NCBI RefSeq assembly: GCF_029278565.1
Contig: NZ_CP119559.1
Coordinates: 2,480,001 to 2,544,000, forward strand
Length of the DNA: 64,000 nucleotides
Direction of reading: 5' to 3'
Source of the DNA: Haloarcula halophila
GTDB taxonomy: Archaea > Halobacteriota > Halobacteria > Halobacteriales > Haloarculaceae
Below the pieces are notes generated by a model. It saw nothing but the letters and a program-made list of their open reading frames with translations, had not been told where the DNA came from and ran no database searches. Position numbers and translations under genes: made by a program. How positions within the stretch are numbered: position 1 is the stretch's first letter; every line of letters begins with the position of its first letter. Below, piece by piece: positions 38,263-41,389 of this stretch.

Positions 38263-38829
38263 CTACACGAGCAGCCGGACGACCCCGAACAGCACCAGCA
38301 CGCCCAGCACGTCACAGACGTTCGTGACCACCGGGATCACAACGTCGTCGGGGTCGAGTTCGAACCGGTAGGCCGCGTAGGTCGTCACCGTCGTGACCAG
38401 CACCGCGAGCACGGCGAGCGTGACGCCGCTTACGGTCGCGACGGCGACGACGGTACCGGGGGGAAGGCGGGCACCGCCGAGGAGCGTCTGTAACAGCCAC
38501 GCGCCCGCACCGACCAGCGGGAACACGGTCAGCGCCAGGGCGACGGTGGCGACGGCGTTCCCCCCGAGCCGGTCGTCGGCCGGCGAGAACGAGACCAGTC
38601 CAAGATGGACTGCCGTGGAGAGCCGGGAGGCGAGGACGCTCCCGAGGTTCCCGGCCATCCCGATGGTCACCGGGACCAACACGAGCAGCGAGGGGTACTG
38701 CAACAGCGTCCCTTCGAAGGTATCGAGTACCAGCCCGCTCCCCAACTCGATGGCGGTCAGGACCGCCAGGACGGGGAGCATCGTCCTGAGGATGCCCGCG
38801 ACCGACCACTGTGTCTCGTGGCCGGACAC
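38263..38829 (-). CDS. mgtE: MgtE-type membrane half-protein (second)
   Basis: A 188-residue protein with five membrane helices that match the MgtE/SLC41 membrane domain. Landmarks: LLVLVPVTIGMAGNLGSVLASRLSTAVHLG and DPDDVVIPVVTNVCDVLGVLVLF, where the Asn and Asp residues line the ion path. It starts with GTG at 38829, one base after the stop of the partner half. Haloarchaeal transporters of this family are often encoded as two half-size genes without the bacterial N and CBS domains. Likely transport: Mg2+ or another divalent metal, as heterodimer with the partner (inference). Confidence 0.82.
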   Translation of the reverse strand: MSGHETQWSVAGILRTMLPVLAVLTAIELGSGLVLDTFEGTLLQYPSLLVLVPVTIGMAGNLGSVLASRLSTAVHLGLVSFSPADDRLGGNAVATVALALTVFPLVGAGAWLLQTLLGGARLPPGTVVAVATVSGVTLAVLAVLVTTVTTYAAYRFELDPDDVVIPVVTNVCDVLGVLVLFGVVRLLV

Positions 38830-38830
38830 G

Positions 38831-39409
38831 TCACCCCCCTCCCAGCGCCAACACCAGCCGCGTCGCCAGTAGCAGCGTCGCGATGCCGACCACGTCACCG
38901 GTCGTGGTCACGACGGGTCCGGCCAGCGTGTCGGGGTTCAGTCCCCGCCGATAGCCGACGAAGACGACCGAGACGACCGCGACCGTGAGTACCAGTCCGG
39001 AGACGAGACCGGCGATCAGCGCGATGCCGACCAGCGTCCCCAGCGAAGCGGATGGCCGACCCAGCACAGCGAGCAGAGCGACGGTCATCACGGCCGCCAG
39101 TCCGCTGACCAGGACGCCGTTTGCCAGGGCCGCCGAGACGGCCGCGTTGACCCGACGGTCCCCCGTCGAGAACTGTGGATCGATCAGCCCCTGGTGGAGC
39201 GCCGAGCCGAGCCGTGCCCCCAGCGAGCCGTAGACGTTCCCCCGGGTCGCCAGCAGCGCGGGCACCAGCACGAGCAGGCCAGCGACCTGCTCCAGTTCGG
39301 CGTCCATCCCGCCCAGGACGACGCCAGCGAAGAGGCCGCCGACGGCACTGAGCCCGAGGACGGGCAGCGCCTCCCGATAGGCCTCTGTCGCGACCTCGCG
39401 GACGGTCAT
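38831..39409 (-). CDS. mgtE: MgtE-type membrane half-protein (first)
   Basis: A 192-residue protein homologous to the neighbouring half. It has five helices, with LLVLVPALLATRGNVYGSLGARLG and TLAGPVVTTTGDVVGIATLLLATRL as the divalent-ion signature segments. The N-terminus MTVREVATEAYREALPVLG is cytoplasmic, followed by the first helix. Co-transcribed with the other half in a pair spaced by one base. No CBS or N-domain magnesium sensor is present, so gating must differ from bacterial MgtE. Starts 51 bases after the stop of the hemerythrin fusion gene on the same strand. Confidence 0.82.
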   Translation of the reverse strand: MTVREVATEAYREALPVLGLSAVGGLFAGVVLGGMDAELEQVAGLLVLVPALLATRGNVYGSLGARLGSALHQGLIDPQFSTGDRRVNAAVSAALANGVLVSGLAAVMTVALLAVLGRPSASLGTLVGIALIAGLVSGLVLTVAVVSVVFVGYRRGLNPDTLAGPVVTTTGDVVGIATLLLATRLVLALGGG

Positions 39410-39459: not shown

Positions 39460-41295
39460 TCAGTCGCGGTCGACCCGGTGGAGGCGCCCGGCGTCGTCGA
39501 ACTCGCCGTAGTCGCCGGTGTGGTACCACCCATCCTGTGTCGCGCTGACGGCGACGTCGCTGGTCTCCCAGTAGCTGTCGACGACGTGGTCGCCCCGGAA
39601 GAGGATCTCGCCGTCCTCGGCGATGGCGACTTCGGTGCCCGGCATCGGGCTCCCCAGCGCCTCGGGAGTGGCCGAGTCGTGTTCGACCAGACAGCCGACG
39701 CCGGTGAGTTCGGTCGCGCCGTACACCTGACTCACTGGGATGTCACAGCCCCAGAAGAAGTACAGTAGGTCCGCCGGCAGGGTCCCCAGCCCCGACAGCG
39801 CGTGCTCGACGTTGCCCAGGCCCAACTGCTCGCGGACCGGCCGGAGGACGAGCCGGGCGGCTGCCGAGTCCGTGAGCGAACTTCCGCCCACACCGCTGCG
39901 TGCCTCGCCGCGCTCGATCGCTGCTCCATCCGCTAGCCGGCGTTTCATCCTCCCGAGATCGTCGATACGGTCCTGGAACGTGTCGTGGAGGTGTTCGTAC
40001 ACGCGAGGGACGCCGACGAGGATCTCCGGTTCCACGGCCTGCAGTCCGTCGACGAAGTCGTCGGCCGGGAGATAGGCGGTGCCCGCACCGTTGTCCCAGA
40101 GGTAGTACGTCGCCACCCGTTGGAAGACGTGCGAGAGGGGCAACAGACAGGTCCCTGTCGCGCCCGGGGAGACGGGGAACTGGTGGCCCAGCGTCGCCAC
40201 CGCCGCCAGCAGGTTCCGGTGGGTGATCGAACAGCCCAGCGGATCGGCGTCCCGGCCGATCTGGTGGACGACGGTCGCGATGTCGTCCGGATCGGCGTCG
40301 AAGCCGGGGAGGTCCTCGATCTCGGCCGTCGGGAGCGCATCCAATCCGAAGACGGTGTCGGCGACCTCCGTGACCGCCTCGCTGGCAGTGTCGTCGGTCA
40401 CGAGGACGCTCACGCCGTCGGTCGTTTCGGTTGCGACCGCCCGCTCGTCGCTGAACGCCGGATAGATCGGCACCGAGATCAACCCCGCGAGATGGCAGGC
40501 AGCGTCGACGACCGACCACTCGTAGGACGGGGCTGCCCGGATGCCGACGGTCGTCCCCGGTTCGACGCCCGCATCGAGGAACCCCCCGGCGACCCGACGG
40601 GCGCGCTCGTAGAACGCCTCGAAGGTCCGCGTCTCGTACCCGGCGTCTGTCCGGACGTAGGCGACCGGTCGGTCGGCGTAGTCGGCTGCCCGGTCGGCGA
40701 GCCAGTCGGCCATCGTCCCGTGGGGGATCGAGACGGCACCGCCGACGTGGACGTTGCTACGGAGGACGACTGCCGTCTCGTCGGCGGGCGCCTCGTAGGT
40801 CCGATCACCCTCTCGTGTCGTGTTTAGTTTCCCGGGGCTGTACTCGTAGTCATCGGGGACGGACTCCCGGTAGTAGCCCGCGTATTTCTGGTCCTCGTCG
40901 CTGGCGGCGATGTGGGCGTCCAGCCAGTCACGGGCGAACTCCAGGACGTCCATCGTGATCGGCTCCCCGTTCTCGTGGCGCTCACGGAACTCGCTGACCG
41001 TCTGTGCGAACTCCTCGTGCATCTCCCGGTGGTTGTAGAAACAGTCCGCACAGTCCATCGCGTACCCACAGTCCTGCATGAACTCCTCCTCGTCGCCGAA
41101 GTGGTACTCCGTGTAGCGCTCCAGTTCCCGCAGGATGTCCCCGATCGCCTCCTCGGAGTGTCCCTCGTCCATCGCGACGTAGAGGTCGTTCAACAGACCA
41201 AAGAGGTGTTTGTGCTGCTCGTCGAAGCGGTCGATATCTGTACTGTACCGGTCGTCGATCCACTCGATGAACGTCTCGCCCGACCGAGATTCCAT
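39460..41295 (-). CDS. Hemerythrin domain fused to a degenerate, truncated AMP-binding (acyl-CoA synthetase-like) domain
   Basis: A 611-residue fusion. Residues 10-140 form a bacteriohemerythrin with a complete di-iron site: H28 in DEQHK, H65 and E69 in HFGDE, H89 and H93 in HREMH, H128 and D133 in HIAASD. Residues 185-611 resemble long-chain acyl-CoA synthetases: VYGATELTG (524-532) and GWYHTGDYGEFD (589-600) are recognisable. Two essential parts are not. The ATP loop (normally SGTTGxPKG) reads HQIGRDADPLGCSITHR (344-360), and the protein ends at VDRD, so the C-terminal lid with the catalytic Lys is absent. A cysteine cluster (C76, C82, C85) adds possible redox or metal sites. Probably a sensor or pseudoenzyme tied to O2, NO or iron (inference). 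No frameshift continuation was found downstream. Confidence 0.85.
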   Translation of the reverse strand: MESRSGETFIEWIDDRYSTDIDRFDEQHKHLFGLLNDLYVAMDEGHSEEAIGDILRELERYTEYHFGDEEEFMQDCGYAMDCADCFYNHREMHEEFAQTVSEFRERHENGEPITMDVLEFARDWLDAHIAASDEDQKYAGYYRESVPDDYEYSPGKLNTTREGDRTYEAPADETAVVLRSNVHVGGAVSIPHGTMADWLADRAADYADRPVAYVRTDAGYETRTFEAFYERARRVAGGFLDAGVEPGTTVGIRAAPSYEWSVVDAACHLAGLISVPIYPAFSDERAVATETTDGVSVLVTDDTASEAVTEVADTVFGLDALPTAEIEDLPGFDADPDDIATVVHQIGRDADPLGCSITHRNLLAAVATLGHQFPVSPGATGTCLLPLSHVFQRVATYYLWDNGAGTAYLPADDFVDGLQAVEPEILVGVPRVYEHLHDTFQDRIDDLGRMKRRLADGAAIERGEARSGVGGSSLTDSAAARLVLRPVREQLGLGNVEHALSGLGTLPADLLYFFWGCDIPVSQVYGATELTGVGCLVEHDSATPEALGSPMPGTEVAIAEDGEILFRGDHVVDSYWETSDVAVSATQDGWYHTGDYGEFDDAGRLHRVDRD

Positions 41296-41389
41296 ACGGA
41301 TCTATTCGTCAGTGAATACAAAAAGCGGAGCCGGCGTTCCCAGGGGTTGAAAACGGTCGCCGACCGGTCGGACGCTCGTTCAGGGGGGC

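Follow-up and report, generated by a model that had tools for sequence, protein, structure and literature searches.

A conserved fusion of a hemerythrin to a lid-less acyl-CoA synthetase domain in Haloarculaceae and a candidate low-oxygen operator

How should a gene be read that joins a hemerythrin to an acyl-CoA synthetase domain stripped of its catalytic parts? Such a gene lies within a 64-kb stretch of the Haloarcula halophila chromosome (the window; Table 1), whose genome, G000, falls in a genus-level group shared with Haloarcula and Halomicroarcula genomes. Its reading frame begins with ATG and contains no internal stops, and the 611-aa product exceeds the Pfam gathering score in both halves, matching Hemerythrin at residues 20–134 (E 2.5e-12) and AMP-binding (PF00501) at residues 201–576 (E 6.8e-46). 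An AlphaFold2 model (pLDDT 83) comprises a helical hemerythrin, a poorly predicted interdomain linker (residues 131–173) and an ANL N-terminal domain. Sequence comparison identifies the product as a real, conserved and uncharacterized protein, not a broken copy. By the same comparison it is a member of the hemerythrins and is not an acyl-CoA synthetase, because two features that define those enzymes, the phosphate loop and the lid, are missing.

Table 1. Features of the fusion locus, in window coordinates.
Feature	Position	Strand	Details
Fusion gene (hemerythrin and pseudo acyl-CoA synthetase N-terminal domain)	39460..41295	-	611 aa; profile matches, homologues
Bacteriohemerythrin domain	40858..41274	-	aa 8-146; ligands H28, H65, E69, H89, H93, H128, D135; NCBIfam profile, DcrH-Hr alignment
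Invariant cysteine loop C76-x5-C82-x2-C85	41041..41070	-	between the H-x3-E and H-x3-H ligands
Pseudo-ligase, ANL N-terminal domain without lid	39463..40728	-	aa 190-611; stops at hinge
Degenerate ATP/pyrophosphate loop	40234..40266	-	aa 344-354; HQIGRDADPLG for YTSGTTGxPKG
Operator TTTTCAACCCCTGGGAA	41337..41353	-	41 nt ahead of the ATG; consensus across the family, TTYYCA-N5-YGRGAA
TATA-like T-rich box	41320..41326	-	about -27 from ATG
Two adjacent half-size MgtE genes	38263-38898 and 38831-39409	-	one PF01769 domain each

The hemerythrin half scores 111.2 bits against the NCBIfam bacteriohemerythrin profile NF033749 (cut-off 84), and its iron ligands were located by alignment to DcrH-Hr (2avk, E 5e-14). 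The last ligand pair of hemerythrins is usually spaced H-x4-D. The original prediction, made from the window sequence, that all seven di-iron ligands are present holds with one amendment: six show the standard spacing of the diiron signature, while the last aspartate sits at H-x6-D. All iron ligands, D135 included, are kept in 35/35 fusion loci, which represent 34 distinct genes since L009 is identical to L035. Three cysteines (C76, C82, and C85) are likewise invariant across the fusions. Both the C-x5-C-x2-C loop and the H-x6-D spacing also occur in stand-alone haloarchaeal hemerythrins, and are common to haloarchaeal hemerythrins whether fused or not; these features could mark a redox or metal site.

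The second half retains the fold of an ANL N-terminal domain, as judged by Pfam and by Foldseek, which returned ANL enzymes and isolated ANL N-domains as the best solved matches to the AlphaFold2 model, among them 5oe3, a lone N-domain in complex with an adenylate. The original prediction described this half as lacking the ATP loop and the C-terminal catalytic part and as ending at the VDRD motif, and each of these points was borne out. The window copy has HQIGRDADPLG at the position of the loop, and because the protein stops at the VDRD hinge, the lid with its catalytic lysine is absent. The same losses extend to the homologues: the TSGTTGxPKG loop is missing from every fusion copy, residues T345, S346, and K353 are kept in 0/23 representatives, and all copies terminate at or near the hinge, with a lid in none. 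A frameshift continuation downstream had been denied, rightly, as the nearest downstream gene, of MgtE type, has a possible start at 39409, some 50 nt beyond the fusion stop, and no homologue carries a lid. Within the remaining domain the A4 segment (LPLxHxYQR...YxLW) is strongly kept and many other sites are invariant, and the fusion length is nearly constant, with 611 aa for the Haloarcula set and 605–623 aa for most other copies. Many members show erosion of the A5 and A7 adenosine motifs, and this, together with the loss of the loop, weakens the proposal that the pocket senses acyl-adenylates, though the window copy retains A5 and A7 intact (YGATE and YHTGD).

A search for the same fusion in other genomes, suggested at the outset, recovered it in 35/146 Haloarculaceae genomes from six genera, all sharing the losses of loop and lid; outside the family, samples of 392 genomes from the order and 345 from the phylum yielded none. 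The Haloarcula copies lie on large secondary replicons and are annotated as bacteriohemerythrin only, as is the fusion of Haloarcula hispanica. Homologues that keep the loop and the catalytic lysine were sought as a sign that the window copy is merely damaged; the fusions lack both, and the relatives that are intact are unfused. These nearest unfused relatives (L065 and L052, then L066–L069) are intact enzymes, among which the fusions nest as a single clade with 96% support, adjoined by intact L065 with 100% support. Because the unfused relatives are intact and the fusions form one clade, the loop and lid, and catalysis with them, probably disappeared a single time, on the branch that gave rise to the fusion. 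A 963-aa frame (L024/L052) considered as a fusion of hemerythrin to an intact enzyme was set aside, as its likely start (MASEIHRG) leaves the protein without a hemerythrin.

Gene order around the fusion varies across genera, and the sole conserved neighbor is a divergent gene about 100 bp upstream, encoding a 143–145 aa FMN-type split-barrel protein (Pfam Pyridox_ox_2, PF12900) whose solved relatives include NimA-related proteins. The orthologue group of this gene, delimited at E below 1e-58, is present in 28/146 family genomes and adjoins the fusion, about 100 bp away, in 28/28. The partner accompanies the fusion in 28 of the 35 genomes that carry it; the genome of the window, the others of its lineage (G002, G010, G017, and G025), G355 and Salinibaculum KK48 have no such gene. 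No partner lid gene was found at the conserved fusion locus. Nearby MgtE and UspA genes had been taken as a hint of stress physiology, and this hint is not supported, because the neighbors are limited to the lineage of the window: in the loci compared, the MgtE halves lie downstream of the fusion only in that lineage, and UspA lies upstream only in the window itself. In Halovenus, a RuBisCO large-chain gene lies directly 3' of the fusion (L044 6901-8160 and L048 6904-8163), with a PF00016 match in the L044 gene.

A second conserved element lies in the promoter. At 34/35 fusion loci, the plasmid copy L037 being the exception, a 17-bp imperfect palindrome, TTYYCA-N5-YGRGAA, is found 40–42 nt before the ATG; a T-rich box stands behind it near -27, an arrangement that suggests a leaderless promoter. 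Shuffled upstream regions reached 11/12 operator matches in 0.02% of trials, and the operator of the window fusion is the only such site in the 64 kb when up to two mismatches are allowed. Searching 17 genomes for the operator together with the T-rich box returned sites in 17/17, while a reversed-pattern control in the same genomes returned none. An ATG reading frame begins 40–42 nt downstream at 42/58 unique sites, against 0.55 expected.

The genes behind the operator in these 17 genomes include the fusion, a DmsR_N plus HTH_10 regulator, DoxX, halocyanin, small membrane proteins and a stand-alone hemerythrin, the last a paralogue in G017 with the same operator as the fusion (operator loci include G000:C1:2654434 [L110], G012 L121, G017 L141, and G134 L117). 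The operator also precedes an Htur_1727 (TIGR04031) gene, behind which stands a radical-SAM frame that we read as being of the heme-synthesis type, and one site lies between a COX1/COX2 gene set, read as a ba3-like oxidase, and a heavy-metal-domain gene, read as a copper ATPase. Anaerobic growth of Haloferax volcanii requires the anaerobic heme gene ahbD (PMC5746218), and DmsR and NarO are regulators of anaerobic respiration (PMC11218638). The DmsR-type regulator found here (PF24277 and PF04967) carries a CxC-x7-C cluster, and at 8 sites the operator stands 42 nt before its ATG; because its own promoter carries the operator, our guess is that this DmsR-type protein binds TTYYCA-N5-YGRGAA. The published denitrification motif, CGAAYATDKTYG (PMC11218638; PMC10062603), is not the conserved element at the fusion promoters. 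We infer that the operator set is a second low-oxygen regulon in Haloarculaceae, apparently undescribed. An O2- or NO-linked role for the fusion, part of the original prediction, gains support from an operator held in common with putative low-oxygen respiration genes.

Whether the pseudo-ligase half is still maintained was approached through codon models, which replaced pairwise NG86 ratios because distant pairs were saturated. In the same 10 Haloarcula genomes, the hemerythrin half had an omega of 0.037 and the pseudo-ligase half one of 0.099, compared with 0.070 in an intact long-chain acyl-CoA synthetase (FACS) paralogue, and therefore the dead half is constrained by purifying selection, though less than the hemerythrin. 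Such selection, together with the same losses in homologues from independent genomes and genera, refutes the reading of this gene as a damaged or mis-assembled remnant of a once complete enzyme, frameshifted or truncated in this genome; a stop placed exactly at the hinge and a lost loop would fit that reading, which we nevertheless regard as barely credible. A more serious rival, and the main one, is that the hemerythrin works alone and the ligase half is a passenger in slow decay, whose frame stays open by chance or for the sake of folding. The pseudo-ligase omega is indeed about 2.7 times that of the hemerythrin half, and in the lineage of the window, where the values are 0.06–0.07 for the hemerythrin half and 0.16–0.175 for the pseudo-ligase, the latter is more worn, with eroded motifs and damaged copies. 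L006 of this lineage contains a short frame-shifted stretch in its pseudo-ligase half, and G017 carries, besides a full copy near a contig end, a second, split copy (L053, G017:C1:66813-68632) with the same operator, as well as the stand-alone hemerythrin paralogue under that operator. Against mere decay stand an omega of 0.10, close to the 0.07 of a working paralogue, a full-length frame kept in 35 genomes, a length that scarcely varies, and the invariance of the A4 segment and many other sites; we consider the passenger reading unlikely. In Halomicroarcula sp. SYNS111 (L050 4785-5402 / L054 5330-5947), also of the lineage of the window, a large internal deletion has removed nearly the whole ligase half; the gene was considered as a hemerythrin freed from its ligase, and because it also lacks the first iron ligand, it is apparently a degraded gene.

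At the other extreme, the ligase half may still be an enzyme, performing for example a lid- and ATP-independent acyl transfer or hydrolysis, or borrowing a lid in trans. Retention of the overall ANL fold and the A4 segment would suit such an activity, as would YGATE and YHTGD in the window copy. However, the phosphate loop is lost from all copies, A5 and A7 residues are lost from many, and the conserved locus offers no gene for a lid, so that continued catalysis appears improbable.

The explanation that we favor, with moderate confidence, is that the fusion is a diiron O2- or NO-binding protein of a low-oxygen respiration regulon, in which the pseudo-ligase half serves as a non-catalytic binding or docking module. 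The compared sequences show a conserved ligand set, the same missing loop and lid, selective constraint on either half, the operator and, in most lineages, the PF12900 linkage. From these we infer iron, O2 or NO binding, a ligand, and the regulator of the fusion. When oxygen falls, a DmsR-type HTH_10 protein would act at the operator, and the hemerythrin site would then buffer, scavenge or sense O2 or NO. In lineages that have it, the split-barrel flavoprotein may re-reduce the diiron site or join the same reaction, and the pseudo-ligase may link the state of that site to a ligand (an acyl chain or CoA) or to a partner protein, working without making acyl-CoA. We count against this explanation the roughly 2.7-fold higher omega of the pseudo-ligase, the worn lineage of the window, the missing PF12900 gene in the window genome and the poorly predicted linker. 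More tentatively, and with appreciable doubt, the fusion could represent a new gas- or redox-responsive protein whose diiron site governs the pseudo-ligase or is governed by it, served by a split-barrel redox partner in most lineages and belonging to an undescribed low-oxygen DmsR-type regulon marked by TTYYCA-N5-YGRGAA.

As far as our literature search reached, ANL pseudoenzymes coupled to an O2-binding domain are unstudied. Given 35 genomes, a probable single origin, a linked partner gene and a shared operator, the function of this one is testable in the tractable Haloarcula hispanica, and the operator outlines what may be a further low-oxygen regulon, one set apart from the denitrification motif and with a candidate regulator.

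The closest published description is a single clause in a 2016 survey, which mentions archaeal sequences that combine an O2-binding hemerythrin and an AMP-binding domain and places this architecture in Methanococci (PMC4919030). Because of the fusion distribution found here, we suspect that haloarchaea were meant. The clause names this pair of Pfam domains for archaea and is silent on the loop and lid, the gene context and the function; beyond it, our search of the literature on haloarchaeal hemerythrin fusions and ANL pseudoenzymes found nothing. The claim that no such pairing had been described is thus nearly right, in that the pairing has apparently not been the subject of a study, and fails only on this clause. 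The same survey covers DcrH-Hr, joined to an MCP, and Hr-GGDEF, which like the fusion have a terminal four-helix diiron domain with its ligand set joined to another domain (PMC4919030). Unlike in these proteins, the partner here is a dead acyl-CoA synthetase N-domain instead of an MCP or GGDEF output, and the fusion differs from them and from bacteriohemerythrins in spacing its last ligand pair as H-x6-D and in having three additional invariant cysteines. With the AMP-forming acyl-CoA synthetases of the ANL group (L065, L052, and L066–L069) it has in common the N-terminal fold and the A4 segment, whereas it lacks their phosphate loop and lid, is joined to a hemerythrin and has eroded A5 and A7 motifs in many copies. 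Finally, the NarO/DmsR regulons of Haloferax and Halobacterium likewise contain a DmsR_N plus HTH_10 regulator with a CxC-x7-C cluster and respiration genes; their published motif is CGAAYATDKTYG, whereas the genes assembled here share one operator of the form TTYYCA-N5-YGRGAA.
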